47,865 nt of DNA, from assembly GCA_027490915.1 (NCBI GenBank), contig JAIXXG010000066.1, forward strand, positions 1 through 47,865. The letters are read 5' to 3'. The notes beneath the pieces were generated by a model, which made no database searches, was not told where the DNA came from, and saw only the letters and a program-made list of their open reading frames with translations. Within the stretch, counting starts at the first letter, position 1, and the number at the start of each line of letters is the position of its first letter. The position numbers and the translations under genes were made by a program. The stretch is from Microbacteriaceae bacterium (GTDB lineage: Bacteria > Actinomycetota > Actinomycetes > Actinomycetales > Microbacteriaceae). Shown in pieces: positions 4,488 to 43,361 of this stretch.

Positions 4488-5447
4488 CTATTTCTGGCGG
4501 GCGTCGAGCACCGAGTCGAGGATGTCGTCGAGCCCGTGGCGCGCGCGCCAGCCGAGCTCGCGCGCGATGCGGCTGACGTCGGCGACCACCGCGGCCGGGT
4601 CGCCGGGCCGGCGGGGGCGGGTGACGGCGGCGGGAGCATCCGGAACACGGCGACGGATGCCCTCGACCACCTCGCGCACGCTCGCCCCGACGCCCGTGCC
4701 GACGTTGTAGACGCGGTGCGGCTCGGGCTGCCCGGGCAGCGCGTCGAGCGCGGCCAGGTGCGCGTCGGCGAGGTCGCGCACGTGCACGAAGTCGCGCACG
4801 CACGTGCCGTCGGCCGTCGCGTAATCGTCGCCGAAGACCTCGGGCGCCCGCCCCGCGTCGATCGCCTCGAGCACCATCGGCACGAGGTTGAGCACGGCCG
4901 TGTCGGCGAGGTCGGGCCAGCCGGCACCGGCCACGTTGAAGTAGCGCAGGCTCGTCACCCGCAGCCCCTGCGCACGCGCGACGTCGGCCGCGAGCCACTC
5001 GCCCGCGAGCTTCGACTCGCCGTAGGGGTTCACGGGCACGGTCGGCGCGTCCTCCGTCACCACGCCCGAGGCGTCGCCGTAGACGGCCGCCGAGCTCGAG
5101 AACACCAGATCGCGCACGCCGGTCTCGACCATCGCCTCGAGCACCGCCGTGAGGCTCGCGCCGTTCTGCTGGTGGTACCAGAGCGGACGAGCGACCGATT
5201 CGCCGACCTGCTTGCGCGCGGCGAGATGGATGACCGCACCGACCCGCTCGGCCCGCATCAGCGCGGCGAGCGCACCCGCGGCGCCGGGCTCGGCGAGGTC
5301 GAGCTCGTGGGCGGGCATCCCGTCGATGCGGTGCCGCAGGCCGAAGACGAAGTCGTCGACGATGACCGGCTCATCGCCGCGCTGCGCGAGCAGCCGGCAG
5401 ACGTGCGCCCCGATGTAGCCGGAACCCCCGGTGACGAGAACGCGCAC
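4488..5447 (-). CDS. galE: UDP-glucose 4-epimerase
   Basis: 319 residues, the usual length for GalE, a cytosolic short-chain dehydrogenase/reductase that interconverts UDP-glucose and UDP-galactose (or the GlcNAc/GalNAc pair). The NAD-binding GGSGYIGAH motif is at residues 7-15, the SSSAAVYG motif with the catalytic Ser near 117-124, and the YxxxK pair is Tyr142/Lys146 in NPYGESK. The start is GTG at 5447. A TAGACT -10 hexamer ends six bases upstream with no Shine-Dalgarno, implying a leaderless message. Upstream lies the repeat-bounded cassette; copy A of its repeat abuts the -10. It supplies a hexose donor for the surrounding glycan locus. Confidence 0.93.
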   Translation of the reverse strand: MRVLVTGGSGYIGAHVCRLLAQRGDEPVIVDDFVFGLRHRIDGMPAHELDLAEPGAAGALAALMRAERVGAVIHLAARKQVGESVARPLWYHQQNGASLTAVLEAMVETGVRDLVFSSSAAVYGDASGVVTEDAPTVPVNPYGESKLAGEWLAADVARAQGLRVTSLRYFNVAGAGWPDLADTAVLNLVPMVLEAIDAGRAPEVFGDDYATADGTCVRDFVHVRDLADAHLAALDALPGQPEPHRVYNVGTGVGASVREVVEGIRRRVPDAPAAVTRPRRPGDPAAVVADVSRIARELGWRARHGLDDILDSVLDARQK

Positions 5448-5453
5448 CCGGCC

Positions 5454-6940: not shown

Positions 6941-6973
6941 TGTCTGGCCCCATTCCCCCTTGGCATGCGAATG

Positions 6974-7079: not shown

Positions 7080-7122
7080 CTAGGCGGGCACCGAGAACGC
7101 GTAGGCGACATCGAGCGCCGTC
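7080..7122. repeat. 43-bp direct repeat, copy B (right boundary of cassette, within hicB)
   Basis: This copy is the native-looking 3' end of hicB, in frame with the rest of the gene and including its TAG stop (7080-7082). It pairs with copy A at 5457-5499 with one mismatch. Confidence 0.9.
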
Positions 7123-9971: not shown

Positions 9972-9988
9972 GAGCGTCTCCTTCGACG

Positions 9989-11818: not shown

Positions 11819-11873
11819 GATGTCGAAACCCCCCATGGGCGCACGCGTGCGCGCACGCCCTCATTTCAGCGTA

Positions 11874-11896
11874 ACCCTCAACCACCGCCTGAGGGT
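11874..11896 (-). terminator. Hairpin downstream of the glycosyltransferase operon
   Basis: ACCCTCA (11874-11880) and TGAGGGT (11890-11896) form a 7-bp stem with a 9-base loop, about 70 bp after the stop of the gene at 11966-13138 and before the CWB2 gene. The same 147-bp gap holds a 14-bp GC palindrome (11839-11852) of unknown role. Confidence 0.5.
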
Positions 11897-11965
11897 GTTT
11901 CGGCATGCCCGGCCTATTCGGATTGCGACCGTGGGCCGCGACGGATCGCCGGAGCGCTCAGGGCC

Positions 11966-17371: not shown

Positions 17372-18421
17372 ATGCGCATTCTCAGCGTGGTCGGGGCCCG
17401 ACCGCAGTTCGTCAAGCTCGCTCCCGTCAGCCGGGCGCTCCAGGAGGTCGCCGAGCACGTCGTCGTGCACACCGGGCAGCACTACGACGACCTGATGAGC
17501 GACGTGTTCTTCCGCGACCTCGGCATTCCGCATCCGGATGTCAACCTCGCGATCGGCTCGGGTGCCCACGGTGCGCAGACGGGCGCGATGCTCGCGGCTC
17601 TCGAGCCCGTCTTCGAGCAGTACCGGCCCGACTGGGTGCTCGTGTACGGCGACACCAACTCGACCCTCGCCGCGGCCGTCGCCGCCGTGAAGCTGCACCT
17701 GCCGCTCGCGCACCTCGAGGCGGGCCTGCGGTCGTTCAACCGCGCGATGCCCGAGGAGCACAACCGGGTGCTCACCGACCACGCCGCCGACCTCTGCCTG
17801 GCGCCCACCGCCGTGGCCATGCAGCACCTCGCCGAGGAGGGGCTCGCCGCCCGCAGCGTGCTCGTCGGCGATGTCATGACCGACGTGCTCTACAGCGTGC
17901 GCGACCGCGTGCTCGCCGCGCCGCCAGCCCTGCCGTGGAGCGACGGCGAGTCGGTCGTCGCGACGATCCACCGCGCCGAGAACACCGACGACCCCGAGCG
18001 ACTGGCCGCGGTCATCGACGCCCTGGCCGCGGTCGACCGGCCCGTGCGCCTGCTCGCGCACCCCCGCCTGCGGGCCGCGGCCGAGCGGGCGGGCATCGTG
18101 CTCGAGCGCGGCGCGATCACCGTGCACGACCCGCTGCCGTACCCCGAGCTGATCGCCGCCGTGCTGCAGGGCTCGGGCGTGCTCACCGACTCGGGCGGCC
18201 TGCAGAAGGAGGCGTACCTGCTGCGCCGCCTGTGCACCACCGTGCGCCCCGAGACCGAGTGGGTCGAGACGGTCGAATCGGGCTGGAACACGCTCGTCGG
18301 CACCCGGCTCGACGAGCTCGCGGCCGAGGTGGCCCGCCCGCTGCCGGCCGAGCCGACCGACCACCCCTACGGCGACGGGCACGCGGCCGAGCGGGTCGCG
18401 GCCGAACTGACCGGCCGCTGA
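17372..18421 (+). CDS. wbpI: UDP-GlcNAc-type 2-epimerase, WbpI-like (possible UDP-GlcNAc3NAcA 2-epimerase)
   Basis: 349 residues of the non-hydrolysing UDP-GlcNAc 2-epimerase family (GT-B-like fold, cytosolic). VVGARPQFVK at residues 6-15, Asp94 in YGDTNST, Glu116 in HLEAGLRSFNR and His200 in ATIHRAENTDD correspond to the known catalytic Asp/Glu/His set of WecB. The stretch LMSDVFFRDLGIPHPDVNL and the ending ETEWVETVESGWNTLVG are closer to WbpI/WlbD than to plain WecB as I know them. WbpI converts UDP-GlcNAc3NAcA to the ManNAc3NAcA form, the last step of the pathway whose other enzymes are at 23991-29207. A WecB role (UDP-ManNAc) cannot be excluded. Confidence 0.85.
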   Translation: MRILSVVGARPQFVKLAPVSRALQEVAEHVVVHTGQHYDDLMSDVFFRDLGIPHPDVNLAIGSGAHGAQTGAMLAALEPVFEQYRPDWVLVYGDTNSTLAAAVAAVKLHLPLAHLEAGLRSFNRAMPEEHNRVLTDHAADLCLAPTAVAMQHLAEEGLAARSVLVGDVMTDVLYSVRDRVLAAPPALPWSDGESVVATIHRAENTDDPERLAAVIDALAAVDRPVRLLAHPRLRAAAERAGIVLERGAITVHDPLPYPELIAAVLQGSGVLTDSGGLQKEAYLLRRLCTTVRPETEWVETVESGWNTLVGTRLDELAAEVARPLPAEPTDHPYGDGHAAERVAAELTGR

Positions 18422-18443
18422 GCGCCGCCGAACTGACCGCGCG

Positions 18444-20222
18444 CTAGTCCAGACCCGCGAGCGCGGCCTGGGTGGCGAACTCGGGCACCGCGCGCCGCAC
18501 GGCGTCGAACGAGCCCTGCGCGACGAGCCGGCCATCGGCGAGGAAGACGATGAGGTCGTTGTCGCGGATCGTCGCCAGGCGGTGGGCCACCGAGATGACG
18601 GTCATCTCGCCCTGCAGCGAGCGGATCGCCTGCACGACGTCGCTCTCGGTCTTCGTGTCGAGGGCGCTCGTGGCCTCGTCGAGCACGAGCACGATCGGGT
18701 CGTTGTAGAGGGCGCGGGCGATGCCGAGGCGCTGCCGCTGGCCGCCCGACAGGGCCATGCCGCGGTCGCCGACGCGCGCGTGCACCCCGCCCTCGCGCTT
18801 CTGCACGACCTCCCACAGCTGGGCGCGGCGCAGCGCGCGCTCGACGCGCTCGAGGTCGAGCTCGCCCGACCAGGTGAGAGCCACGTTCTGGGCGACCGTG
18901 CCGTCGAATAGCGCGACATCCTGCGGCACGTAGCCGACCCGCGAGCGCCACGCCGCCATCACGTCGTCGAGGTTCTGCTCGTCGAGCATGATGCGGCCCT
19001 CGGTGGGCGACAGCAGGCCGAGCAGCATGTCGACGAGCGTGGTCTTGCCCGACCCCGACGAGCCGACGATGCCCACCGACGTGCCGAGCGCGATCTCGAG
19101 GTCGACCCCGCTGATGGCGGGCGACTCGCTGCTCGGGTAGGTGAACGCGGCACCTTCGATGCGCAGCGTGCGCGGCTCGCCCGCGATCGGGTCGTGGCCG
19201 ATCACCTCGGCCCGCTCGATGTAGACGCGCGACTGCGCGATGTCCTCGAGCACCGCCTGCACGTGCGCCGAGTTCGCCTGGGTGGTCGTGAGGATCGACT
19301 GCAGGCTCGTCAGCGACGGCACCAGCCGGAATCCGGCGACGCCGAACAAGGCGACGGATGCGAGGGCCCCCGCCGGGCCGCCCGTCAGGTAGGCCACGCC
19401 GCCCACGAGCAGGAAGCCGCCGATGAGCCCCGCATCCAGCACGAACCGCGGCACGGCCGAGATGAAGTGGATGTTCGCGCGCGCCCGCGTCGAGTGGATG
19501 CGGTTGGCGTGCACGACGCCGGCGACCTCGCCGGCCTTGTCGCGCAGCGTGATCTCTTTGAGCGCCGAGACCATGTCGGTCATCAGGCTGGCGACCTTGA
19601 ACGAGTAGTCGCGGTTGACGCGGCCGGCCTGCACCGCGCGCTTCGAGATGACGCGGGCCTGCAGCGCGGCGAGCCCGCCGAGGTAGACGATCGTGACGAG
19701 CGCCGTGATCGGCTCGGCGATGATGATGACGACCACCACGGCGACGCTCGTCACGAGGAGGGTCGGCAGGGTCAGCACCGGCAGCAGGAAGCCGCCGATC
19801 GTGTTGCCGATGCCGACGTCGGCGAGTCGCACGAGCTGTGCCGTGTTCTTGCTGAGCCGGTCGGTCCACGGTGCGCGGATGTAGGCGTCGAACAGCCGGT
19901 CGCCGATCTCGAGCTCGAAGGCCGCGAACCGCCGCGTCGCGTGCCACTGCAGCACGAGGCTGAGGGCCGCCTTCACGATGACGACGAGCGAGATCACGAG
20001 CAGGAACCACACGTACGAGTCGGGGCCGATGCTGCCGATGAGCGGCAGCTCGATGTCGGAGCCGGTCACCATCGAGCCGAGCGAGACCGCCAGCAGGGCG
20101 ATCGCCACGACGTCGACGGCGGCGAGCAGCGAGGTGGCGATCGAGTAGCCGACGATGAACCGGCGCGCGCGGGCGGGCAGCAGCGGCACCAGGCGGCGCA
20201 GGGTTCGCACGATCATCAGCAC
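18444..20222 (-). CDS. Fused ABC exporter, PglK/MsbA-type (lipid-linked glycan flippase candidate)
   Basis: 592 residues: an N-terminal six-helix permease half (about 1-330) and a C-terminal ATPase. Walker A GSSGSGKTT, Q-loop VGYVPQDVALF, signature LSGGQRQRLGIARAL, Walker B VLVLDEATSALD and switch His in VAHRL are all intact. It works as a homodimer in the membrane. In a glycan locus such half-size exporters (PglK/WlaB type) flip lipid-linked oligosaccharides, though lipid or peptide export is possible. Start GTG at 20222 follows a TAGGCT -10 box by eight bases; ATG at 20216 is an alternative. It lies 11 bp after a glycosyltransferase gene of the same strand and is convergent with the epimerase gene. 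Confidence 0.87.
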   Translation of the reverse strand: MLMIVRTLRRLVPLLPARARRFIVGYSIATSLLAAVDVVAIALLAVSLGSMVTGSDIELPLIGSIGPDSYVWFLLVISLVVIVKAALSLVLQWHATRRFAAFELEIGDRLFDAYIRAPWTDRLSKNTAQLVRLADVGIGNTIGGFLLPVLTLPTLLVTSVAVVVVIIIAEPITALVTIVYLGGLAALQARVISKRAVQAGRVNRDYSFKVASLMTDMVSALKEITLRDKAGEVAGVVHANRIHSTRARANIHFISAVPRFVLDAGLIGGFLLVGGVAYLTGGPAGALASVALFGVAGFRLVPSLTSLQSILTTTQANSAHVQAVLEDIAQSRVYIERAEVIGHDPIAGEPRTLRIEGAAFTYPSSESPAISGVDLEIALGTSVGIVGSSGSGKTTLVDMLLGLLSPTEGRIMLDEQNLDDVMAAWRSRVGYVPQDVALFDGTVAQNVALTWSGELDLERVERALRRAQLWEVVQKREGGVHARVGDRGMALSGGQRQRLGIARALYNDPIVLVLDEATSALDTKTESDVVQAIRSLQGEMTVISVAHRLATIRDNDLIVFLADGRLVAQGSFDAVRRAVPEFATQAALAGLD

Positions 20223-20230
20223 GGTGATCG

Positions 20231-20236
20231 AGCCTA
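20231..20236 (-). promoter_or_regulatory. -10 box for the fused ABC exporter gene
   Basis: TAGGCT on the minus strand, eight bases before the GTG at 20222. Its TAG is the stop codon of the upstream glycosyltransferase gene. Confidence 0.45.
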
Positions 20237-21571
20237 CTGCCGCGAGCCGGGCGTGGCCGGGCCCCGCGGGGTCGCCGACCGGCCGAGGGCGGCGGGGCTG
20301 TCGAGGGCGGCCAGGATGCGGGCGGCCGACAGCCGCCCGTCATGCAGCGCGCGCACGAACGCCGGCCCGCGCTCGGCGGTCGCGCGCGCAGCGGTCGGAT
20401 CAAGCAGCACCCCGCGCAGCACCCCCTCGAGCGTGCCCGGCTCAGCCTGCACGATCGGCACCTCGAGCCCGTGGTCGCGCGCGATGGCCGCGCGGTACTC
20501 GGGCAGCACATTCGACACGACGACCCGGCCCGCGGCGAGCGCCTCGCACGCGGCCACGCCGTACCCGCCCATGCGCAGCGAGTCGACCATGATGTCGGCC
20601 CGGCGGTAGGCGTCGGCGACGACATCGTGCGTCACCTGCTCGAGGCGCTCGTAGCGCACGAGCCCCTCGGCGGCGAGCCGTGCGAGCACCGCGTCGATGA
20701 TGTCGCTGCCCTTGATGGCCGCCTGGCTCGGGGCGTGCACGACGAGCGGCGGCTCGGCGTGCGGCGGCTCGGCGTCGGGCCGCGCGGCCGCGACCAGCGG
20801 CGGGCGCTCGACCGCCCACGCCGCGACGTCGACGACCACCGGCAGCCACGTCGCCTCGGGCAGGTCGATGAGCACGCCGTGGGTCGTGCCGAGCACGGGC
20901 GCACCCGTCGCGCGGATGACGCGGCGGCGCTCGCGCGCTCGGCGCTGCACGGCGGGCACCAGGGCGGCGAGCTCGGGCAGACGGTACGGCGAGTGCTCGA
21001 GCCGCGCCGCGTGCGCCGCGACATCGCGCACATCGCTGCCGTGGCAGACGATCACCACCCGGATGCCGCGCCGCTGCAGCGCTCGCACCTCGCGCTGCAG
21101 GCTCTGGCCGAAGGCCGGCCCGAACAGCGGCAGCCCCGATTCGATGACGACGTCGGTCGCCGAGAAGCCGCGCACACGCGCGTGCTCGCGCTGCCAGTCG
21201 CGAGAGGCGCGGGCAAGCGCGGGCGGCACGGCGATATCGACGGGGAAGGCGAACGGGCCCGCGGCCGTCGACTGCAGGCTGCGGGCCACCAGCTCGGGCC
21301 GCGCGGCCTGCCCGCCGGGATGCGCGGCCTGCCCGCCGGGATGCGCGGCCTCGAGGGCGCGCGCCCAGGCGTGCGCCTGCCCCGCGGTGTTCACCGGGCC
21401 GAGCAGCACCCGCCGGGCGGCGGGCGGCAGCGGCTCCGGCCGCGGCCGCGAAGCGGGGAGGTCGCGGTAGCGCGCGGGCTGCAGCAGGCGGCCCGCGGCA
21501 TCCGGAAGCAGGCTGAGCGCACCGCCGACGGCGTGCACCCAGCGCAGGGGCAGCACAGAGTCGGGGCGCAT
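20234..21571 (-). CDS. Glycosyltransferase, paralogous family copy 3
   Basis: 445 residues from ATG at 21571. It is the third member of the family at 11966 and 13135: LGPVNTAGQAHAWARALEAA near residue 60, VVIVCHGSDVRDV near 180, VVHAPSQAAIKGSDIIDAVL near 275, YGVAACEALAAGRVVVSNV near 335 and FVRALHDGRLSAARIL near the end. It is longer than the others through an in-frame 21-bp tandem repeat at 21301-21350 (AHPGGQA units) and a Pro/Ala insertion near residue 265. GT-B fold, unknown substrates. Start evidence is modest, as no strong ribosome site is seen. Confidence 0.8.
   Translation of the reverse strand: MRPDSVLPLRWVHAVGGALSLLPDAAGRLLQPARYRDLPASRPRPEPLPPAARRVLLGPVNTAGQAHAWARALEAAHPGGQAAHPGGQAARPELVARSLQSTAAGPFAFPVDIAVPPALARASRDWQREHARVRGFSATDVVIESGLPLFGPAFGQSLQREVRALQRRGIRVVIVCHGSDVRDVAAHAARLEHSPYRLPELAALVPAVQRRARERRRVIRATGAPVLGTTHGVLIDLPEATWLPVVVDVAAWAVERPPLVAAARPDAEPPHAEPPLVVHAPSQAAIKGSDIIDAVLARLAAEGLVRYERLEQVTHDVVADAYRRADIMVDSLRMGGYGVAACEALAAGRVVVSNVLPEYRAAIARDHGLEVPIVQAEPGTLEGVLRGVLLDPTAARATAERGPAFVRALHDGRLSAARILAALDSPAALGRSATPRGPATPGSRQ
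21301..21350. repeat. In-frame 21-bp tandem repeat (2.4 copies)
   Basis: Two identical 21-bp units (21301-21321, 21322-21342) plus 8 bp of a third, encoding repeated AHPGGQA inside the glycosyltransferase gene. Copies are identical, suggesting recent slippage; the paralogues lack the extra units. Confidence 0.85.
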
Positions 21572-21660
21572 CAGGTGATCCGCGGGTGAGGGGTCACTCG
21601 GTCGACGCTACCCGGGCCCGGCGGCGGGCGCATCCGGCACGGGCTCGACTGGTACCGTCG

Positions 21661-22827
21661 ATGTTCGTGTCCGCGCCTGCCCGCCCCCCGCTCGCCGAGC
21701 CCCGGCTCGAGTCGCTGACCGGGCTGCGCTGGTGGGCGGCGTTCGGCGTGTTCTTCTACCACATGGCGAACCTCGCGCCCCTGCCGATCGTCGAGCTGCT
21801 CGACCTCGGCAACTACGGGGTCATGTTCTTCTTCGTGCTCTCGGGCTTCGTGCTCACGTGGTCGGCGCGACCCGGCACCACGGTCGGCACCTTCTACTGG
21901 CGCCGCTTCGCCCGCATCTATCCCGCCCACTTCGTGGCGCTGCTGCTGGCGATCCCGGTGTTCTACAGCGTCGACCCCGACCCCGAGCAGTGGTGGGTCA
22001 AGCCGCTCGACGTCGGCGTGCTGCTGCTGTCGGTGCTGCTCATCCAGGGCTGGTGGTCGAACCCCGTCATCCTGTTCTCGGGCAACCCCGCCGCCTGGAC
22101 CCTCACGGTCGAAGCCTTCTTCTACGCCTTGCACCCCTGGCTGCAGCGGGTGCTCGCGGTGCTGCGCTCACGCGGCGCGCTCATCATCGCGATCGTGCTC
22201 ATCGCGCTGTCGTTCGGGTGGCGGATGCTCGAGCTCGCCTCCCCCGCCGTGGCGAGCCTGCCCATCCCCGTGCCGGTCACCCGGCTCGCCGAGTTCGCGA
22301 TCGGCATGTGCCTCGCCCACGCCATGCGGGCCGGATGGCGCCTCGCGCTGCGCCCCTGGATCGTGCTCACCGGCGGAGCGGCCCTCGCGATCGTGCTCAC
22401 CTACGACAGCGGCACGGCCTGGCTCGGGCCCGTGCGCGAGTTCGTGCGCGCCACCCAGACCGAGTGGATCCTCGTGTTCTGCACCCTGCTCATCGCCACC
22501 GTCGCCACGCGCGACGCGCTCGGCGGCCGCAGCTGGCTGCGCCAGGGCTGGATGGTGAAGCTCGGCGAGGCCTCGTACGCGTTCTACCTCGTGCACGCCA
22601 CCGTCATCTACTTCGTGCTGAGCTTCGTGGGCAAGCAGTCGCTCGGCTGGGGCGGCCTCGTCTGGTACCCGCCGCTCTTCCTCGCCGCCCTCGCCCTCGC
22701 CTTCGCCCTGCACCTCGGGGTCGAGAAGCCGCTCGAGCGGCGCATGCGGCGGTGGTGGGACGCCCGCCTCGAGCGCAAGCGCGCCGCGGCTGCCGCCGCC
22801 GCCACCGAAGCCGCGCCGAGCTCCTAG
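21661..22827 (+). CDS. Acyltransferase 3 family membrane protein (O-acetylase-like)
   Basis: 388 residues from ATG at 21661; a TACCGT box at 21653-21658 would instead fit a leaderless GTG at 21667. About ten hydrophobic segments. ESLTGLRWWAAFGVFFYH opens the family, with the conserved Arg (LR) and the His in FFYHMA; FFFVLSGFVLTW and FYWRRFARIYPAHF are the next conserved blocks. These mark acyltransferase 3 (PF01757), which moves acyl groups, often acetyl, onto surface carbohydrates using a cytosolic donor. The last 30 residues are basic and Ala-rich. Its stop lies 18 bp from the stop of a convergent glycosyltransferase gene. It probably decorates the polymer made here. Confidence 0.85.
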   Translation: MFVSAPARPPLAEPRLESLTGLRWWAAFGVFFYHMANLAPLPIVELLDLGNYGVMFFFVLSGFVLTWSARPGTTVGTFYWRRFARIYPAHFVALLLAIPVFYSVDPDPEQWWVKPLDVGVLLLSVLLIQGWWSNPVILFSGNPAAWTLTVEAFFYALHPWLQRVLAVLRSRGALIIAIVLIALSFGWRMLELASPAVASLPIPVPVTRLAEFAIGMCLAHAMRAGWRLALRPWIVLTGGAALAIVLTYDSGTAWLGPVREFVRATQTEWILVFCTLLIATVATRDALGGRSWLRQGWMVKLGEASYAFYLVHATVIYFVLSFVGKQSLGWGGLVWYPPLFLAALALAFALHLGVEKPLERRMRRWWDARLERKRAAAAAAATEAAPSS

Positions 22828-22845
22828 CCCTCGCGACGGGAACGG

Positions 22846-23988
22846 CTAGCGGCGGGCGACCGCCGCGACAGCGGCCGCCGCGCGGCCCGCGACCGCGGCG
22901 AGGTCGACGTGGGCCCGCGCCCACTCCGCCTGCGCGTGCCGCTCGGCGACCGTGGCGGGCGCCGACAGCACGGTGCGCAGGGCGTCGGCCACCGGCACGG
23001 GGTCGTGCGGGGCAGCGTGGCCGAGGGGGGCATCCTGCGCGAAGGCGGCCCCCGGGCCGTCGCCCGAGAACAGCAGCGGCGCTCCCGCGGCCGCCGCGGC
23101 GTAGAGCTTGGTCGGGAAGGCGAACTGGTAGCCGCCGTCAGGCTTCACACTCGCGAGGGCGACCGCAGCGCCGCGCAGCCAGCGCGCGACGACCTCGGGC
23201 GCGGCCGTCGGCAGGAAGGTCACGCGGCCCGGAGCAACCTGGTCGACCCGGCGGCGCAGGGCCTCGAGCTCGACGCCGCCGCCCATGAACACCAGCCGCG
23301 CCTCGGGGACGTGGGCGAGCGCCTCGACGAACACCCCGGCCCCGTGCACCTCGGATGCGGTGCCCGCGTACAGCGCATACCCCGGCTCGGCCTCCGCCGT
23401 CGGGCCGTCGGGCGCGAACACGCTCGTGTCGATGCCGTTGCCCACCTCGACGATGCGGGCCGCGGGCACGCCCAGCTCGCGCAGCCGGGCCGTGACGCTC
23501 GGCGACACGCTCAGCACGGCGGCCGCGCGGCGCCACACCGTGCGCTCCATCCAGCGCACCACCCGCACGACAGGGGCCGGGCTGCCGGCGCTCGCGGCCG
23601 CGTCGGCCAGCACGTCTGCCGCGTAGTAGACGACGGGCGTGCGCCGCAGCCCCGCGGCCGCGACCGCGGCGAGACCCGTGGTCGGCGGCGGCTCGACGAC
23701 GATCGCTGCCGAGCGGCGGGCGGTCAGCAGGCGGAAGAACAGCGGGATGTCGAAGCTCAGGTAGGGCACGTAGCCGCGCACCGCCCCGGTGCGGTCGCGC
23801 AGCACGGGGGCGCGGCGGACCGAGAGGCGGGCATCCGGTGCCGCTTCGACCATGCCGCGCGGCAGCCGGGAGGTGAGCACCGTCACGTCGTGACCCGCGT
23901 CGGCGAGCGCCGCCGCCAGCGCCGCGAGCCGGAACGAGGCCGCCGCCGGCTCGGGCGCGAAGATGCGGCTCGCGATCGTGACGCGCAT
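22846..23988 (-). CDS. Glycosyltransferase (GT4-type), last gene of the Wbp-like operon
   Basis: 380 residues from ATG at 23988. RIFAPEPAAASFRLAALAAA is the N-terminal loop typical of WbuB/WcaI-like GT4 enzymes. VEPPPTTGLAAVAAAGLRR and VVYYAADVLADAAASAG form the acceptor half; RIVEVGNGIDTSVFAPDG marks the interdomain link; FAFPTKLYAAAAAGAPLLF is the donor-binding helix with a PTKLYE-like motif. Two bases after the oxidoreductase gene, so co-transcribed with the Wbp-like genes upstream. A role in transferring the sugar they make is a reasonable inference. Confidence 0.82.
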   Translation of the reverse strand: MRVTIASRIFAPEPAAASFRLAALAAALADAGHDVTVLTSRLPRGMVEAAPDARLSVRRAPVLRDRTGAVRGYVPYLSFDIPLFFRLLTARRSAAIVVEPPPTTGLAAVAAAGLRRTPVVYYAADVLADAAASAGSPAPVVRVVRWMERTVWRRAAAVLSVSPSVTARLRELGVPAARIVEVGNGIDTSVFAPDGPTAEAEPGYALYAGTASEVHGAGVFVEALAHVPEARLVFMGGGVELEALRRRVDQVAPGRVTFLPTAAPEVVARWLRGAAVALASVKPDGGYQFAFPTKLYAAAAAGAPLLFSGDGPGAAFAQDAPLGHAAPHDPVPVADALRTVLSAPATVAERHAQAEWARAHVDLAAVAGRAAAAVAAVARR

Positions 23989-23990
23989 CG

Positions 23991-24977
23991 TCAGAAGCTG
24001 ACCGACTCGCCCGTCCGTGCCGACTGCAGCAGGCCCTCGACGACCTCGAGCGTGCGCAGGCCCTGACGCATGGTCACCACGTCGGTGTCGCGGCCGAGCA
24101 CCGCGTCGCGGAAGGCCTCGTGCTCGACCCGCAGCGGCTCGCGCTTCGGGAAGGCGTAGCGCACGACGTCGCCCTCGCTCACGCCGCGGAACGCGGTCAC
24201 CGACTCCCACTCGAGCGGGATCGTGCCGTTGGCGTAGAACGTGAGGTCGCCCGTCGCGGTGTCGGCGACGAGCGCGCCGGCCTCGCCTGTGGCGACCGTG
24301 ATGCGCTCCTTCATCGGGCTCAGCCAGTTGACAATGTGGTTGACGATCACGCCGTTCGCGAGGCGGCCCGAGGCGATGATCATGTCCTCGTGCTCGCGGC
24401 CCGACTTCAGGGCGGTCTGCGCGAAGACCGTGCGGTAGTCGCTCTGCACCACCCACGCGGTCAGGTCGATGTCGTGGCTCGCCAGGTCTTTCGCCACGCC
24501 GACGTCGGCGATGCGCGCCGGGAACGGGCCCTGGCGGCGCGTGATCACCTGGTAGATCTCGCCGAGGTCGCCCGCGGCGATGCGCCGGCGCATCTCCTGC
24601 AGGGCCGGATTGAAGCGCTCGATGTGGCCGACCGCGCCGACGAGACCCGCCGACTCGAAGGCGTCGACCATGCGCTGACCGGCCTCGAGGGTGTCGGCGA
24701 TCGGCTTCTCGACGAGCGTGTGCACGCCGGCGGCAGCGAGCTGCAGCGCCGCATCCTCGTGGAAGCGGGTGGGAACCGCGACGACCGCGATGTCGACGCC
24801 GACCGCGATGAGAGACTCGAGGTCGGGCAAGATCGGCAGGCTGCCCGCCACGCCGTGCGGGTCGCCGCCCGGGTCGGCGATCGCGACCAGCTCGACGCCG
24901 TCGAGCTCGCGCAGCACGCGCGCGTGGTGCCGGCCCATCATGCCGACGCCGATGAGACCGGCGCGCAGCGCGGTCAT
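23991..24977 (-). CDS. wbpB: Gfo/Idh/MocA-family oxidoreductase, WbpB/WlbA-like (UDP-GlcNAcA 3-dehydrogenase candidate)
   Basis: 328 residues from ATG at 24977, overlapping the previous stop by one base (TGATG). The dinucleotide motif GLIGVGMMGRHHARVL is at residues 7-22 and the conserved EKPIAD at 90-95 supplies the active-site Lys91; a KDLASHDIDL segment near residue 175 carries the acid/base His region. Length and order (oxidoreductase, aminotransferase, acetyltransferase) match WbpB/WlbA, which oxidises C3 of UDP-GlcNAc-uronate before transamination. Other Gfo/Idh enzymes look similar, so the assignment rests mainly on context. Confidence 0.83.
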   Translation of the reverse strand: MTALRAGLIGVGMMGRHHARVLRELDGVELVAIADPGGDPHGVAGSLPILPDLESLIAVGVDIAVVAVPTRFHEDAALQLAAAGVHTLVEKPIADTLEAGQRMVDAFESAGLVGAVGHIERFNPALQEMRRRIAAGDLGEIYQVITRRQGPFPARIADVGVAKDLASHDIDLTAWVVQSDYRTVFAQTALKSGREHEDMIIASGRLANGVIVNHIVNWLSPMKERITVATGEAGALVADTATGDLTFYANGTIPLEWESVTAFRGVSEGDVVRYAFPKREPLRVEHEAFRDAVLGRDTDVVTMRQGLRTLEVVEGLLQSARTGESVSF

Positions 24978-26077
24978 CAGGCGCCCGCCCGCGCGACCGC
25001 GTTGACGGCCGCGATGATGCGGTCGAGGTCGCGGCGGTTCAGCGAGGGATGCACGGGCAGCGACACGACCTCGCGCGCGGCCTTCTCGGTCTCGGGCAGG
25101 TCGAGCCCGGGCGCGAAGGGGGCGAGCGAGGGCAGGCGGTGGTTCGGGATCGGGTAGTAGACGCCCGAGCCCACGCCGTGCTCCTCGCGCAGGGCCTTGA
25201 CGAAGCCGTCGCGGTCGTCGGCGACGCGCACCGTGTACTGGTGGAAGACGTGCACGGCGCCCGGGGCCGTCAGCGGGGTGGGCACCGCCGTGATGCCCGC
25301 GCTGAGGTACGCGGCGTTCTTCTGCCGCGCCGCCGTCCAGCCATCGACCTTGGTCAGCTGCACACGGCCGATCGCGGCGTGGATGTCGGTCATGCGCGCG
25401 TTGAAGCCGATGACCTCGTTGTGGTACTGCACCTCTTGCCCCTGGTTGCGCAGCAGCTTCACCGCACGCACGAGCTCGGGGGTGTCGCAGGCGACCATGC
25501 CGCCCTCGCCGGAGGTCATGTTCTTCGTCGGGTACAGGCTGAACATCGCGAAGCGGCCCCAGGTGCCGACCGGGCGGCCGTTGAGCGAGGCGCCGTGGGC
25601 CTGCGCCGCGTCTTCGTAGATCTCGAGGCCGTGCTTCTGCGCGATCGCCTCGAGCTCGACCATGCGCGCCGGGTGCCCGTAGAGGTGCACGGGCATGATC
25701 ACCTTGGTCTTCTTCGTGATCGCCTTCTCGACGGCCGCGGGGTCGAGGCCGTAGGTCTCGGGCTCGATGTCGACGAACACCGGGGTCGCGCCGGTCAACG
25801 CCACCGAGTTGCCCGTCGCCGCGAAGGTGAACGAGGGAACGATGACCTCGTCGCCCGGTCCGACGCCCGCCGCGAGCTGCCCGAGGTGCTGGCCGGCCGT
25901 GCCGCTGTTGACGGCGACGCACGCGCGGCCCTGCACGAAGTGGTCGCCGAACTCCTGCTCGAACGCGGCCACCTGCGGGCCCTGCGCCACCATGCCCGAG
26001 CGCAGCACGCGGTCGACCGCCTTGCGCTCGGCACGACCGAACAGCGGCTTCGCCGCGGGGATCAGGGGCTTGGCCAT
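24977..26077 (-). CDS. wbpE: DegT/DnrJ/EryC1 aminotransferase, WbpE/WlbC-like
   Basis: 366 residues from ATG at 26077, with a GAGGAGAG ribosome site inside the end of the upstream gene and immediate TAG-ATG adjacency. PLP-binding Lys185 is in SLYPTKNMTSGEGG; Asp156 in YEDAAQAHGA pairs with the pyridine nitrogen; VNSGTAGQHL near residue 57 is the phosphate-binding turn. The family transaminates keto-sugar nucleotides. WbpE adds the 3-amino group to UDP-3-keto-GlcNAcA using glutamate. The flanking WbpB- and WbpD-like genes support that substrate. Confidence 0.88.
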   Translation of the reverse strand: MAKPLIPAAKPLFGRAERKAVDRVLRSGMVAQGPQVAAFEQEFGDHFVQGRACVAVNSGTAGQHLGQLAAGVGPGDEVIVPSFTFAATGNSVALTGATPVFVDIEPETYGLDPAAVEKAITKKTKVIMPVHLYGHPARMVELEAIAQKHGLEIYEDAAQAHGASLNGRPVGTWGRFAMFSLYPTKNMTSGEGGMVACDTPELVRAVKLLRNQGQEVQYHNEVIGFNARMTDIHAAIGRVQLTKVDGWTAARQKNAAYLSAGITAVPTPLTAPGAVHVFHQYTVRVADDRDGFVKALREEHGVGSGVYYPIPNHRLPSLAPFAPGLDLPETEKAAREVVSLPVHPSLNRRDLDRIIAAVNAVARAGA

Positions 26078-26680
26078 CTAGCTCTCCTCACTCAGGGCGC
26101 CGTCGCGCTCGATGTAGCGCGCACCGGTCTGCGGGCAGACCCAGGCGCCGTCCTGCTCGACGAGCCGCACGCCCGCCTTCCCCACCCACCCGAGGCGGCG
26201 TGCGGGCACACCAGCCATCAGGGCGAAGGCGGGAACATCCTTGGTCACGACGCTGCCCGCCGCGATGGTGGCCCAGCGGCCGATCTCGACCGGAGCGACG
26301 CACACCGCGCGCGCACCGATCGCGGCCCCCTCGCGGATCGTCACGCCGACCGGCTGCCAGTCGTGCGCCGACTTCGGCGTGCCGTCGGGGTTGACCGCGC
26401 GCGGGTAGGTGTCGTTCGTCAGCACCACCGCGGGGCCGATGAAGACGCCCGCCTCGAGGTGGGCCGGCTCGTAGACGAGGGCGTAGTTCTGCACCTTGCA
26501 GTTGTCGCCGAGCTGCACGCCCGTGCCGATATAGGCGCCCCGCCCGACGATGCAGTTGCGGCCCAGAACGGCGTCTTCGCGCACCTGCGCGAGATGCCAG
26601 ATCGACGAGCCCGCGCCGATACGGGCGGAGGGGGCGACGTCGGCGGAATCGACGATGCGGACGTCGGCAGAATCGGTCAC
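26078..26680 (-). CDS. wbpD: Left-handed beta-helix N-acetyltransferase, WbpD/WlbB-like
   Basis: 200 residues from GTG at 26680. Hexapeptide repeats run from about residue 15 to 150 (SARIGAGSSIWHLAQVREDA, then CIVGRGAYIGTGVQLGDNCK), giving a trimeric parallel beta-helix. The NYALVYEPAHLEAGVFIGP and LTNDTYPRA segments are characteristic of WbpD/WlbB, which acetylate the 3-amino group with acetyl-CoA. A C-terminal tail with ACVCPQTG-like Cys spacing follows. First gene of the four-gene minus-strand unit; the 77-bp divergent gap to 26758 lacks a clear -35/-10 for this strand. Confidence 0.85.
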   Translation of the reverse strand: MTDSADVRIVDSADVAPSARIGAGSSIWHLAQVREDAVLGRNCIVGRGAYIGTGVQLGDNCKVQNYALVYEPAHLEAGVFIGPAVVLTNDTYPRAVNPDGTPKSAHDWQPVGVTIREGAAIGARAVCVAPVEIGRWATIAAGSVVTKDVPAFALMAGVPARRLGWVGKAGVRLVEQDGAWVCPQTGARYIERDGALSEES

Positions 26681-26757
26681 GAAGGCGCGCTTTCGACGAG
26701 GGGGGATGCGCGGGCACGCGCCGCTCCAGGGTACCCGGTTCTGACACAATGGGCGGC

Positions 26758-27477
26758 ATGGCCGACGCCCCACCGACCCCTGCCGCGCCGGCCGCGACCC
26801 CCGCCGTGGGCACCGACGGCGTCTGGGTCGTCATTCCGCTGTACAACGAGGCCACCGTCATCGGCGGCGTGGTCGCCGAGCTGCTCGCGAGCTTCCGCCA
26901 CGTGGTGTGCGTCGACGACGGGTCGACCGACGACTCGGCCGCCGCCGCCGAGTCCGCGGGCGCCCGGGTCATCCGCCACCCCCACAACCTCGGGCAGGGC
27001 GCCGCTCTGCAGACGGGCATCAGCTACGCCCGCGCGCAGGCCGGCTGCGCCTACGTGGTCACCTTCGACGCCGACGGGCAGCACCGGGTGGTCGACGCGC
27101 TCGCCATGATCGAGCTCGCCCGCACGGAGGACGCCGCCATCGTCTTCGGCTCGCGCTTCCTCGACGACCGCACGAAGCCGGGCCTCGCCAAGAAGATCGT
27201 GCTCAAGACCGCGGTGGCCGTCACCAACCTCTCCACCGGCCTGACGCTGACGGATGCGCACAACGGCCTGCGCGTGCTGCGCGTCGACGCCGCCCGCGCC
27301 GTCAACCTCAAGCAAGACCGCATGGCGCACGCCTCGGAGATCGTCGTGCAGCTGGGCCGCTCAGGGCTGCCCTGGCGCGAGTTCCCGGTCGAGGTGCTCT
27401 ACACCGACTACTCGAAGGCCAAGGGGCAGTCGCTGCTCAACTCGATCAACATCCTCGTCGACCTCATCATCAACTAG
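26758..27477 (+). CDS. GT2 glycosyltransferase (dolichyl-/polyprenyl-phosphate sugar synthase-like)
   Basis: 239 residues from ATG at 26758; a CACAAT hexamer at 26745-26750 could drive a near-leaderless message, and ATG at 26749 is an alternative. VWVVIPLYNEATVIGGVVAE, then CVDDGSTDDSA with the Asp pair, and TFDADGQH (the DxD-like motif) mark a GT-A fold GT2 enzyme. The short C-terminus without membrane helices and the partner DUF2304 gene 12 bp downstream match a recurrent actinobacterial pair in which the small membrane protein probably anchors the transferase. The sugar is likely passed to polyprenyl phosphate or to the glycan. Confidence 0.85.
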   Translation: MADAPPTPAAPAATPAVGTDGVWVVIPLYNEATVIGGVVAELLASFRHVVCVDDGSTDDSAAAAESAGARVIRHPHNLGQGAALQTGISYARAQAGCAYVVTFDADGQHRVVDALAMIELARTEDAAIVFGSRFLDDRTKPGLAKKIVLKTAVAVTNLSTGLTLTDAHNGLRVLRVDAARAVNLKQDRMAHASEIVVQLGRSGLPWREFPVEVLYTDYSKAKGQSLLNSINILVDLIIN

Positions 27478-27489
27478 CGGAGGTCTGCC

Positions 27490-27867
27490 ATGTGGTTCCA
27501 GATCATCCTCATCGTCGCCCTCGTCGGCATCGGCATCTACCTGGTGCGCTCGACGCCGAGCCCGCGGCACCTGGCGATCCGTCGCCTGCTCGTGCTGCTC
27601 GCCCTGCTCGGCGGTGTCGTCGTCGTGGTCTGGCCAGGGCTGCTGAGCGCCCTCGCGCAGCTCGTCGGCATCGGGCGCGGCGCCGACCTGCTGTTCTACC
27701 TCGCGATCGTCGCCGGGCTGCTCTACGTGGTGAACGAGTACAAGCGCTCGGTGCAGCTGCAGCGCGCCAACACCCAGCTCGCGCGCGAGATCGCGCTGAC
27801 CGAGGCGCGGCTCACCGACCGCATCGCCGAGCTGGAAGCGCGGCTCGGCGAGCGCGAGCATCCCTGA
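27490..27867 (+). CDS. DUF2304 small membrane protein
   Basis: 125 residues from ATG at 27490 with GGAGG at 27479-27483. Three hydrophobic segments (about 3-20, 32-52, 63-80) are followed by a charged coiled-coil tail (ANTQLAREIALTEARLTDRI). This is the DUF2304 layout. The family is usually encoded next to a GT2 transferase, as here, and is thought to work with it at the membrane; biochemical function is not established. Confidence 0.85.
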   Translation: MWFQIILIVALVGIGIYLVRSTPSPRHLAIRRLLVLLALLGGVVVVVWPGLLSALAQLVGIGRGADLLFYLAIVAGLLYVVNEYKRSVQLQRANTQLAREIALTEARLTDRIAELEARLGEREHP

Positions 27868-27899
27868 CCCGCCGCCCGAACCGGGGTGCGCGCGACCGG

Positions 27900-27905
27900 T
27901 AGTCT
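27900..27905 (+). promoter_or_regulatory. -10 box for the UDP-sugar dehydrogenase gene (leaderless)
   Basis: TAGTCT, six bases before GTG at 27912, with CGAACC 17 bases upstream (27877-27882) as a weak -35. No Shine-Dalgarno. The gene could thus be transcribed apart from the GT2/DUF2304 pair. Confidence 0.55.
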
Positions 27906-27911
27906 TGCCCG

Positions 27912-29207
27912 GTGAAGATCGCCGTCATCGCCCTCGGAAAGATCGGCCTGCCGCTGGCCGTGCAGTTCGCCTCGAAGGGGCACGAGGTCGTCGGAGTCGA
28001 CGTCAACCCCGACACCGTCGCCCTCATCAACGCCGGAACCGAGCCGTTTCCGGGCGAGGCGCACCTGGCTGAGAAGCTCGCCGAGCTCGTGCCGGCCGGC
28101 GCGCTGCGCGCGACCACCGACTACGCGGATGCGGTGCCCGGCGCCGACGCGGTCGTGCTCGTCGTGCCGCTCTTCGTCGACGACGAGGCCCGCCCCGACT
28201 TCGGCTGGATGGACGCCGCGACGCGCTCGCTCGCCGCGAACCTCACCCCCGGCACGCTCGTCGCCTACGAGACGACCCTGCCGGTGGGCACCACCCGCAC
28301 GCGCTGGAAGCCCATGCTCGAAGAGGGCTCGGGGCTCACCGAGGGCACCGACTTCCACCTCGTCTTCTCGCCCGAGCGCGTGCTGACCGGCCGCGTGTTC
28401 GCCGACCTGCGCAAGTACCCGAAGCTCGTCGGCGGGCTCTCCCCCGCCGGTGCCGCCGCGGCCGTCGCGTTCTACGAGGCCGTGCTCGACTTCGACGACC
28501 GCCCCGACCTGCCCCGCGGCAACGGGGTGTGGGATCTCGGCAGCGCCGAGGCCGCCGAGATGGCGAAGCTCGCCGAGACCACCTACCGCGACGTCAACAT
28601 CGGGCTCGCCAACCAGTTCGCGCAGTACGCCGCGACGGCCGGCATCGACATCTACCAGGTGATCGAGGCCAGCAACTCGCAGCCCTACAGCCACATCCAC
28701 CAGCCGGGCATCGCCGTCGGCGGCCACTGCATCCCCGTCTACCCGCGGCTCTACCTCTGGAACGACCCGGCCGCCACCGTCGTGCGCGCCGCCCGTGAGG
28801 CGAACGCCGGGATGCCCGACTACACGATCGGCCTGCTCGAGGGCGTGCACGGCGACCTCGCCGGGCAGCGCGTGGTCGTGCTCGGTGCCGCCTACCGCGG
28901 CGGGGTGAAAGAGACGGCGTTCAGCGGCGTCTTCGGTGCCGTCGCCGCCCTGCAGGCGCGCGGGGCCGAGGTGCTCGTGCACGACCCGCTCTACACCGAC
29001 GACGAGTTCGCGCGCTACGGCTGGACGCCCTACCACCTGGGGCAGCCCGTCGACGCCGCCGTCGTGCAGGCCGACCACGCGGAGTACCGCGCGCTCGGCC
29101 CGGCCGACCTGCCGGGCATCCGCACGTTCGTCGACGGCCGGCGCGTGTCGAGCGCCGAGCAGTGGCCCGGCGTCACCTACCGCGTGATCGGCATCCCGGG
29201 GGTCTGA
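27912..29207 (+). CDS. wbpA: UDP-N-acetylhexosamine 6-dehydrogenase, WbpA/WecC-like
   Basis: 431 residues from GTG at 27912. The UDP-glucose/GDP-mannose dehydrogenase family is clear: IALGKIGLPLAVQFA nucleotide loop at residues 6-20 (the first Gly of GxGxxG is Ala7), conserved Lys219 in AEMAKLAETTYRDVNI, and the nucleophile Cys273 in GGHCIPVYP. It oxidises C6 of a UDP-HexNAc to the uronic acid with two NAD. With the WbpB/E/D/I-like enzymes nearby, UDP-GlcNAc to UDP-GlcNAcA is the likely reaction; a WecC role (UDP-ManNAcA) is the alternative. Its last 31 bp overlap a convergent gene. Confidence 0.87.
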   Translation: MKIAVIALGKIGLPLAVQFASKGHEVVGVDVNPDTVALINAGTEPFPGEAHLAEKLAELVPAGALRATTDYADAVPGADAVVLVVPLFVDDEARPDFGWMDAATRSLAANLTPGTLVAYETTLPVGTTRTRWKPMLEEGSGLTEGTDFHLVFSPERVLTGRVFADLRKYPKLVGGLSPAGAAAAVAFYEAVLDFDDRPDLPRGNGVWDLGSAEAAEMAKLAETTYRDVNIGLANQFAQYAATAGIDIYQVIEASNSQPYSHIHQPGIAVGGHCIPVYPRLYLWNDPAATVVRAAREANAGMPDYTIGLLEGVHGDLAGQRVVVLGAAYRGGVKETAFSGVFGAVAALQARGAEVLVHDPLYTDDEFARYGWTPYHLGQPVDAAVVQADHAEYRALGPADLPGIRTFVDGRRVSSAEQWPGVTYRVIGIPGV

Positions 29208-36021: not shown

Positions 36022-36759
36022 CTACTCGGGCTCGGTCGCGAGCGCCGTCTCGTAGGCGGCGACCACGTCGGCCGTCGGCCCGAGCTGCCGCAGCCGGCCG
36101 CCGTCGAGCCACGCCACCCGCTGGCACAGCTCACGGACCTCGTCGAGCGAGTGCGACACCAGCACGACCGTGCGACCCTGGCCGGTGAACTCGAGGAACT
36201 TCTTCCGCGACTTCTCGCGGAAGGCGCCGTCGCCGACGGCGAGGATCTCGTCGACGATGAGGATGTCGGGCTCGGTGTGCACCGCGACCGAGAAGCCGAG
36301 GCGCACGTACATGCCCGAGGAGTAGTTCTTCACCGGCTGGTCGATGAACTGCTCGACCCCCGAGAAGTCGACGATCTCGTCGAACCGGGCCGCGATCTGC
36401 TTGCGGCTGAGCCCGAGGATGGCCCCGTTGAGGAAGATGTTCTCGCGCCCGCTCAGCTCGGGGTGGAACCCCGACCCCACCTCGAGCATCGACGAGACGC
36501 GGCCGTCGAGAACGACGCGGCCCTCATCGGGGCTGTAGATGCGGGCGAGCGTCTTGAGCAGCGTCGACTTGCCCGAGCCGTTGCGACCGATGAGCCCCAA
36601 GGTCTCGCCGTGCTCGACCCGGAACGAGACGTCGCGCACCGCCCAGAACTCGTCGGCGATGATGCGCCGCCCGCGCATGACGGCCGACTTGAGCGTCTGA
36701 TTGCGCTCGTGGAAGAGGCGGAAGCGCTTCGACACCCCGTCGACGACGATGGCGCTCAC
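36022..36759 (-). CDS. wzt: ABC transporter ATPase, polysaccharide export (Wzt-type, short form)
   Basis: 245 residues from GTG at 36759, overlapping wzm as GTGA. Walker A GRNGSGKSTLLK, Q-loop region FHPELSGRENIFLNG, signature YSSGMYVRLGFS, Walker B ILIVDEILAVGD and switch His SHSLDEV identify the Wzt/TagH family that powers export of finished polysaccharide. The protein stops right after the ATPase, so the C-terminal glycan-recognition domain of long Wzt proteins is absent; export would not be gated by terminal capping. Last gene of the rfbC-rfbA-wzm-wzt operon. Confidence 0.9.
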   Translation of the reverse strand: MSAIVVDGVSKRFRLFHERNQTLKSAVMRGRRIIADEFWAVRDVSFRVEHGETLGLIGRNGSGKSTLLKTLARIYSPDEGRVVLDGRVSSMLEVGSGFHPELSGRENIFLNGAILGLSRKQIAARFDEIVDFSGVEQFIDQPVKNYSSGMYVRLGFSVAVHTEPDILIVDEILAVGDGAFREKSRKKFLEFTGQGRTVVLVSHSLDEVRELCQRVAWLDGGRLRQLGPTADVVAAYETALATEPE

Positions 36760-37580
36760 AGCAGCTCGGCCAATCGCCGGTCGGCGCGCGCGAAGACGAG
36801 GTAGCCGAGCAGGAACACGATCGACGCGCTCGCGATCGCGGCGAGCGCCGTGGCCGCGTCGGGCAGGCGGTTGTCGTACAGCAGGGCGCGGAAGAGCTCG
36901 ATCACGGGCAGCACGGGGTTCAGCTGGTAGAGCACGAGCGCCCACTCGCCGATACCCCGCAGCGCCTGCTCCACGAGCTGAACGGGGTAGATGATCGGGG
37001 TGAGGAGCATCCACATCGGCAGCAGCACGGCGACGAAGTGCTCGGTGTCGCGGAAGAACACGTTGAGCACCGAGAGCATCAGGGCGAGGCCGCTCGCGAG
37101 CATCGCGAGCACCACGACGGCGAGCGCCACGAGCGGCAGCCACGGCAGGGGGAATCCGCCGAACGCCCACAGCGCGGCGCTGAGCACCAGCAGCTCGACC
37201 CCGAATGTGATGGCCGTGCTGACCGCCACCGCGAGCACTAAGTGGATGCGCGGGAAGTACACCTTGGTGATGAGCGGGGCATTGGCGGTGAGGGTCGAGA
37301 CGCCGCCCGTGACGACGCGGGTCAGGTACAGCCACGGCAGCAGCCCGCACATCAGCCACAGGGCGTAGACGTCGAGCCCGCTCGGGTCGCCCACGGGCGG
37401 CCGAGTGCGGAAGATCACCGCGAACACCACCGTGTAGACGAGCATCGTGGCGAGCGGGTTGATGATCGACCACAGCTGCCCGAGAACCGTGCGGCGGTAC
37501 TGCCCGCGCACCTCGCGCATGACGAGCATGGCGAGCAGCTCGCGCGTGGCGAGCAGCTCGCGCGCGTAGCCGGCGGTCAT
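36756..37580 (-). CDS. wzm: ABC transporter permease, polysaccharide export (Wzm-type)
   Basis: 274 residues from ATG at 37580, overlapping rfbA as ATGA. Six hydrophobic segments of the ABC-2 permease family; [20 protein letters not shown] is the typical amphipathic N-terminal interface and [16 protein letters not shown] the conserved loop before helix 5. It forms the channel for Wzt. A short duplicated ELLA-x-R run near residue 8 (37538-37566) looks like a small tandem duplication. Confidence 0.9.
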
Positions 37581-43342: not shown

Positions 43343-43361
43343 CCGAGCGTTACGGGCTCGG
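43343..43361. terminator. Hairpin at the GT4/LCP convergent junction
   Basis: CCGAGC (43343-43348) pairs with GCTCGG (43356-43361) around a 7-base loop that contains the TAA stop of the LCP gene (43350-43352 on the minus strand). The stem is short but sits exactly between two convergent genes. Confidence 0.4.

Follow-up and report, generated by a model that had tools for sequence, protein, structure and literature searches.

We analyzed a stretch of 47,865 nucleotides from a Microbacteriaceae bacterium (GCA_027490915.1, contig JAIXXG010000066.1; hereafter, the window) and found that it encodes together all five enzyme families of the Wbp pathway, which leads to uridine diphosphate (UDP)-2,3-diacetamido-2,3-dideoxy-mannuronic acid (UDP-ManNAc3NAcA). 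It is very probable that the route to this sugar nucleotide is present in the window. With high confidence, we further propose that the five enzymes convert UDP-N-acetylglucosamine (UDP-GlcNAc) to UDP-ManNAc3NAcA and that their neighbors build an acidic surface glycopolymer of the teichuronic type. The 6-dehydrogenase (A, for WbpA) would oxidize C6; the 3-dehydrogenase (B) would oxidize C3, which the aminotransferase (E) would transaminate and the acetyltransferase (D) N-acetylate; and the 2-epimerase (I) would invert C2 last to give the final product. Most likely, the surrounding glycosyltransferases and exporters would then put the sugar into an acidic teichuronic-acid-type glycopolymer, as in Streptomyces griseus. 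Our inferences are the reaction at each step, the sequence of the oxidations, the incorporation of the sugar into a polymer and the attachment to the wall.

Five genes of a probable diacetamido sugar pathway

At the level of gene calls, codon bias placed five coding genes with strong actinobacterial bias between positions 17372 and 29207 (Table 1), and the family models agree with them. Thus, the five enzymes of the original prediction are where it had put them and in the families that it expected. It had also described the set as scattered. This is overstated: D, E and B form a single operon-like run on the minus strand with D as the first gene, and all five genes fit within 11.8 kb. D and E are adjacent without a gap, and E overlaps B by a single base. 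A lies on the opposite strand, behind a GT2 glycosyltransferase gene and a DUF2304 gene, and starts 1.2 kb from D; the end of I is 5.6 kb from B. The start of the acetyltransferase was called at 26680, and the longest open reading frame (ORF) starts at 26773. The 68-base gap that separates D from the GT2 gene gave no RNA fold signal (z +1.57). The bacterium's own genome is 2.57 Mb in size, with the window as its contig 135, and in it each enzyme had one match at thresholds from E 1e-20 to 1e-60. Just before the epimerase there is also a 143-residue ORF (16930-17361, plus strand) with no Pfam match at 0.01 and a weak match in one of the 80 named loci described below.

Presence, family, clade, specificity residues, linkage and co-occurrence of the enzymes are established by comparison. 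For the 2-epimerase, the top five distinct PDB sequences were the Thermus thermophilus UDP-GlcNAc3NAcA 2-epimerase and its variants (329.5-331.9 bits, phmmer), followed by 4neq (238.9 bits) and, lower, Escherichia coli WecB (1f6d, 135.3 bits). In the Thermus study (PMC10622841), the residues reported to set this enzyme apart from UDP-GlcNAc epimerases are Trp307 in place of Arg, Tyr96 in place of His/Gln, and Ala18 in place of Leu/Met. Trp297, Tyr92, Gln12 and Leu16 of the window enzyme align with Thermus Trp307, Tyr96, Gln14 and Ala18; by this alignment, the window enzyme carries two of the three published markers and lacks the third. In 49/49 rows of actinobacterial epimerase orthologues, window included (47 different genes, because G113 and G108 each appear twice), the Trp, Tyr and Gln are conserved. 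At positions 307, 96 and 18, eight actinobacterial WecB carry Arg, Gln and Val/Met, and E. coli WecB carries Arg, His and Met; at the Gln14 position, all nine have Glu. Arg307 is found in 9/9 WecB and in all three sequences of intermediate type, which share 40-51% identity with the window enzyme. In the tree, the window epimerase clade (support 100/99) joins the WbpI references (99/96), apart from the WecB clade (100/100); the tool flags one long branch, MID_G048. The epimerase is the only PF02350 match of its genome.

For the 6-dehydrogenase, the window enzyme, 10 actinobacterial orthologues and a Priestia protein (100/99) join WbpA/TviB (97/93), and WecC (99/96) and the UDP-glucose dehydrogenases (100/100) fall outside this grouping; the tree is midpoint-rooted, and the tool flags two of its branches as long. 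The original prediction had named a grouping with WecB/WecC, together with an absence of diamino uronic acids from the wall, as what would speak against the route, and both trees came out negative for the grouping (99/96 for the epimerase, 97/93 for the 6-dehydrogenase). The motif GGHCIP[VI]YP is present in 41/41 6-dehydrogenases (the window, with GGHCIPVYP, and loci L001-L113) and in 8/8 Streptomyces-type loci. The only other full-length nucleoside diphosphate (NDP)-sugar dehydrogenase of the genome (contig 124) was considered as WbpA and rejected, as it falls in the UDP-glucose dehydrogenase clade.

The acetyltransferase is the clearest assignment by sequence comparison, clearer than the aminotransferase: its best PDB match is 3mqg/3mqh, a lipopolysaccharide-biosynthesis acetyltransferase, with 132.6 bits, and the next scores 80.6. 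Moreover, the epimerase, acetyltransferase and aminotransferase are 38-47% identical to those of an annotated Pseudomonas frederiksbergensis operon.

Distribution in related genomes

The comparison covered 119 genomes from the order, 394 from the class, and 80 named loci (the best 80 of 366). The named loci with the closest 3-dehydrogenases, among these best 80, came from Microbacterium, Salinibacterium, Microcella and similar genera, with 71-91% identity; Microcella and Salinibacterium are Microbacteriaceae of the Micrococcales. D, E and B are contiguous in 73 of the 80 named loci, and the arrangement is therefore not due to chance. Within the sampled DNA of these loci, A is found in 34, I in 31 and all five genes in 17, with both full 10 kb flanks available for 65 of the 80. 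In one genome (G113), all five genes lie inside 6.3 kb. The cultured relative Microcella alkalica also has all five in a single locus (L041). A natural internal control is found in a further locus (L124 of genome G100, 4580-14698), where a distinct wecC-wecB pair and the A-B-E-D-I set share about 10 kb. Locus L173 belongs to G481, a genome from the same family as the window, and keeps D-E-B as an intact operon at 6262-8929.

In the order, the genes are found in sets that are fully nested: D in 51 genomes, E and B in exactly the same 46, A in 42 and I in 37. All 37 genomes with I have A, and all 42 with A have B (Fisher 6e-28 for A with B, uncorrected for the kinship of the genomes). In the class, B is present in 77 genomes, A in 71 and I in 49; A comes with B in 70/71 genomes and I with B in 48/49. 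The exceptions are G473, with A and I without B, and G415, with I without A. A is found without I in 23 of the 71 class genomes, and the 3-dehydrogenase reaches 36 of the 138 genera. These co-occurrence counts track relatedness and are not independent events. Moreover, they follow the removal of low-identity rows: in the order, epimerases at ≤51% identity (25/62 genomes), aminotransferases at ≤45% (7/53 genomes) and acetyltransferases at ≤47% (2/53 genomes plus a second match in G030); in the class, epimerases at ≤52% (82/131 genomes). All 3- and 6-dehydrogenase matches were retained, including those of G030 (partial), G192 (46% and 49%) and G308 (52%).

Alternative readings and the order of the two oxidations

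Several observations weigh against a Wbp-type set. For the epimerase, the window clade branches as sister to the WbpI references, whose own grouping is weakly supported (71/50); NCBIfam labels the enzyme wecB (258.7 bits, cut-off 210.15); and Leu stands in place of Ala18. An epimerase from an annotated operon of the wbp type scores 322.6 with the same wecB model, which thus fails to discriminate. Leu occupies this position in all 49 orthologue rows and Ala in five wbp-type reference epimerases. Since the four Streptomyces-type rows among the 49 have Leu too, it is probably compatible with epimerase function; PMC10622841 reports Ala18 for one enzyme, and this residue is not known to be essential.

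The 6-dehydrogenase is equally distant in pairwise identity from WbpA (33%) and WecC (32%), with 39% to the Priestia dehydrogenase. It also lacks the Asp four residues past the Cys of GGHC, which we take to be catalytic in UDP-sugar dehydrogenases: window Tyr277 is Asp in the WbpA, TviB and WecC references and in three PDB relatives, and the Priestia enzyme is also Tyr-type. The claim that all catalytic residues are intact is therefore not fully right, given Tyr277 here and Leu16 in the epimerase. As an observation apart, the Priestia locus (L149, a Priestia megaterium plasmid, 5409-11500), which lies near spore-coat genes, encodes a WbpI-type epimerase and an aminotransferase of the DegT family alongside a Tyr-type 6-dehydrogenase.

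On the same side, the aminotransferase scores 238 bits with WbpE (3nyu), below 7b0d (named glutamine--scyllo-inositol transaminase, 270) and 2oga (266.5). It has a YPTKN motif aligned with that of 7b0d, and its WbpE-type assignment rests mainly on the operon. The 3-dehydrogenase, described in the original prediction as WbpB-like, does not match a WbpB of the Pseudomonas kind: it had no blastp match at E 1e-3 to either of two reference WbpB, from the annotated operons of P. frederiksbergensis and Sulfitobacter pontiacus. The P. frederiksbergensis Gfo/Idh/MocA enzyme scores 573.9 bits with PDB 3oa2, an entry named WbpB. Because Bordetella WlbA (3q2k) is likewise missing from the PDB match list of that Pseudomonas-type WbpB, likeness to it is not required of the pathway. 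Finally, fold comparison failed to tell a GnnA type from a WlbA type: the predicted structure (mean predicted local distance difference test, pLDDT, 90.1) ties GnnA (Z 35.0) with WlbA (Z 35.6), and other Gfo/Idh/MocA proteins reach Z 37.5. Neither 3oa2 (P. aeruginosa WbpB) nor 3o9z (Thermus) is in the profile list at E 1e-15 or in the structure-comparison rows shown, which we did not use as proof.

It is highly improbable that the epimerase and 6-dehydrogenase are a WecB/WecC pair making UDP-N-acetylmannosaminuronic acid (UDP-ManNAcA), unrelated to D-E-B. Besides the wecB label, this reading could draw on the best PDB match of the 6-dehydrogenase (4r16, a hypothetical UDP-ManNAcA dehydrogenase) and on an archaeal model for UDP-ManNAc dehydrogenases, which it matches with 249.9 bits, under the cut-off of 750; a reference WbpA reaches 230.4 with that model too. 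Both trees and the epimerase specificity residues contradict it, and we rejected it on these grounds; moreover, the 6-dehydrogenase co-occurs with the 3-dehydrogenase in 70/71 class genomes, and G100 has WecB/WecC beside its five-gene set. WecB/WecC in members of the same order are 48-55% identical to their E. coli counterparts. It is also very unlikely, though slightly less so, that the set yields only the gluco form, UDP-GlcNAc3NAcA, with the epimerase serving another purpose. The class genomes that have A without I are in line with a gluco-only set, as is S. antibioticus, which makes a GlcNAc3NAcA polymer (PMC13274773), but the window has a WbpI-type epimerase with the diagnostic Trp, and its genome offers no second PF02350 protein.

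We thus retain UDP-ManNAc3NAcA as the predicted product, which could also be reached with the oxidations in the other order: a GnnA-like 3-dehydrogenase acting on UDP-GlcNAc would lead to UDP-GlcNAc3NAc, followed by Tyr-type oxidation at C6 and by the epimerase last. We hold this order to be quite possible, though somewhat less probable than not. The order is not fixed, because the 3-dehydrogenase is unlike Pseudomonas WbpB and matches best with UDP-GlcNAc 3-dehydrogenases. Its profile finds first the UDP-GlcNAc 3-dehydrogenase GnnA (7bvj, 110.7 bits) and then WlbA (88.9 bits), and single-sequence scores are 74.6 and 70.1 bits. NF040723 (UDP-GlcNAc 3-dehydrogenase) matches the window enzyme with 200.6 bits and neither reference WbpB at 1e-10, but this score is under the cut-off of 450 and the structural Z values tie. 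The EKP motif is invariant in the 3-dehydrogenase. No GnnA structure paper was among the literature matches listed.

At the genome level, the nesting of I in A in B follows the GnnA-first order. Eleven genomes hold B without an A orthologue. G481, which is 100% complete, has D-E-B intact and no NDP-sugar dehydrogenase at E 1e-20 (43 candidates scored), and the same absence is found in G030, where completeness is 88% and B is partial. Only UDP-glucose-dehydrogenase-like enzymes accompany D-E-B in G085 (three) and G073 (one), and they are also the only ones in G308, whose B is only 52% identical. If the D-E-B sets of the genomes just named are functional, their 3-dehydrogenase would presumably use UDP-GlcNAc. 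Against this order, the other six of the eleven (G032, G165, G166, G226, G415 and G438) have a WbpA-type dehydrogenase with the Asp, 35-44% identical to reference WbpA, and the Streptomyces pathway was proposed to be similar to the Pseudomonas one (PMC13274773). Since a WbpA-type enzyme stands in for A in these six genomes, A seems replaceable by WbpA, which suggests the same kind of oxidation. G014 carries both Tyr-type and WbpA-type 6-dehydrogenases.

More tentatively still, we consider a rewired actinobacterial route, in which a GnnA-like enzyme would start at C3 of UDP-GlcNAc and the Tyr-type clade would oxidize the diacetylated sugar late. Neutral and acidic diamino sugars would then form a modular ladder (D-E-B, A, I), lengthened or shortened by lineage to alter the wall polymer.

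Neighboring genes and comparison with known systems

The pathway genes stand among putative glycosyltransferases, exporters and an attachment enzyme (Table 1), and the neighborhood also holds dTDP-rhamnose-type genes. The MsbA/PglK-like exporter has a strong match in 61 of the 80 named loci. Elsewhere in the genome, contig 31 has three PF04464 (Glyphos_transf) matches. From this gene content, a wall-linked acidic glycopolymer would be the natural reading.

Table 1. Pathway enzymes and neighboring genes in the window (ABC, ATP-binding cassette; PLP, pyridoxal phosphate)
Feature	Position	Strand	Evidence
GalE-type 4-epimerase, possible UDP-Gal/UDP-GalNAc source	4488..5447	-	TIGR01179 300.3 bits (cut-off 262.3)
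I: WbpI/UtrH-type UDP-GlcNAc3NAcA 2-epimerase, 349 aa	17372..18421	+	PDB 8sxv 331.9 bits; residues; tree
MsbA/PglK-like ABC exporter	18444..20222	-	PF00005; MsbA 236.8 and PglK 217.6 bits, both under cut-off
GT4-type glycosyltransferase, directly after 3-dehydrogenase	22846..23988	-	PF13579/PF13439; strong match in 40/80 named loci
B: UDP-sugar 3-dehydrogenase, Gfo/Idh/MocA, 328 aa, putative WbpB role	23991..24977	-	NF040723 200.6 bits; 7bvj 110.7
E: WbpE-type PLP 3-aminotransferase, DegT, 366 aa	24977..26077	-	PF01041 387 bits
D: WbpD/WlbB-type N-acetyltransferase, hexapeptide repeat, 200 aa	26078..26680	-	PDB 3mqg/3mqh 132.6 bits
GT2 glycosyltransferase, resembles polyprenyl-phospho-GalNAc synthase PpgS	26749..27477	+	NF058614 268.7 bits (cut-off 370); strong match in 48/80 loci
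DUF2304 small protein by GT2	27490..27867	+	PF10066 81.7 bits; strong match in 25/80 named loci
A: UDP-HexNAc 6-dehydrogenase, Tyr-type, 431 aa	27912..29207	+	TIGR03026 296.6 bits (cut-off 189.8); tree
Two-gene ABC-2 polysaccharide exporter: TagH/Wzt-like ATPase, Wzm-like permease	36022..37580	-	TagH 208.4 (cut-off 320); galactan Wzm 66.2 (cut-off 380)
LCP-family glycopolymer transferase, candidate for peptidoglycan attachment	43350..44708	-	PF03816 76.6; TIGR00350 73.5 (cut-off 62.3)

Beside the polysaccharide locus, three large proteins with CWB2 cell-wall-binding repeats are encoded on the minus strand (684-4400, 7374-9971 and 9989-11788). Between the first two lie a stretch with no good gene call (5448-7079), where a 347-residue ORF has a DUF3039 match confined to its final 52 residues, and a 66-residue HicB-like antitoxin-type ORF (7080-7280, minus strand), weak at 20.2 bits (cut-off 27) and with no partner gene called.

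The prediction of a UDP-ManNAc3NAcA route is correct in its essentials, and the route is of an ordinary kind: it is known, and a homologous one was recently linked to the wall polymer of a Gram-positive bacterium. The remaining interest lies in the two non-canonical dehydrogenases and the ladder-like distribution. A literature search found no paper joining Microbacteriaceae with a diacetamido sugar.

With the Pseudomonas/Thermus WbpA-B-E-D-I pathway (PMC10622841), the window is expected to share the same five reactions. It differs by a 3-dehydrogenase without a blastp match, a 6-dehydrogenase in a sister clade with Asp replaced by Tyr, an epimerase with Leu for Ala, and a destination that would be the wall rather than lipopolysaccharide. 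GnnA is the best profile match of the 3-dehydrogenase, with 26% identity in the structural alignment; it acts on UDP-GlcNAc by the title of 7bvj, and the substrate of the window enzyme may differ. The original prediction had called the pathway best known from Pseudomonas O-antigen and Bordetella lipopolysaccharide. A view of the sugar as a Gram-negative speciality is not supported, as two studies report ManNAc3NAcA in the walls of S. griseus (PMC13274773) and Cutibacterium acnes (PMC6598116). The latter is a Gram-positive wall polymer that we liken to the predicted one by its sugar.

The closest known system is the Streptomyces utr locus. As PMC13274773 describes it, the locus encodes the aminotransferase UtrA, the oxidase UtrB, the dehydrogenase UtrD, the 2-epimerase UtrH and the acetyltransferase UtrJ, with L21/L27 as anchors. 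S. griseus has the 2-epimerase and a wall polymer with ManNAc3NAcA, solved by nuclear magnetic resonance, and S. antibioticus lacks utrH and has GlcNAc3NAcA instead. We compared eight loci that fit the utr locus, all but one of them from a single genus with 7-10 Mb genomes and the eighth from a second genus; we infer their Streptomyces identity from this anatomy and from genome size. Their orthologues are 58-72% identical to the window enzymes, with A, B and E in all eight, D in five and I in four. E and B are side by side and A is 1.6-14 kb away in every locus, and D is beside L21 and/or L27 in four. The four loci without I have no I match in their genomes at E 1e-65.

The window differs from the utr locus in its Microbacteriaceae host and in having no L21/L27 motif, and no glycosyltransferase of the window has a strong match in the eight loci (the Streptomyces locus has UtrC/F/G). 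All five enzyme types are common to both. The window would extend this anionic wall-sugar pathway from Streptomyces to Microbacteriaceae and, by way of its 3-dehydrogenase, to 36 of 138 genera among the 394 class genomes. In Streptomyces, the pathway was described in 2025 as the receptor for antibacterial umbrella toxins. The presence or absence of the 2-epimerase would predict a manno or a gluco wall polymer across these genomes.

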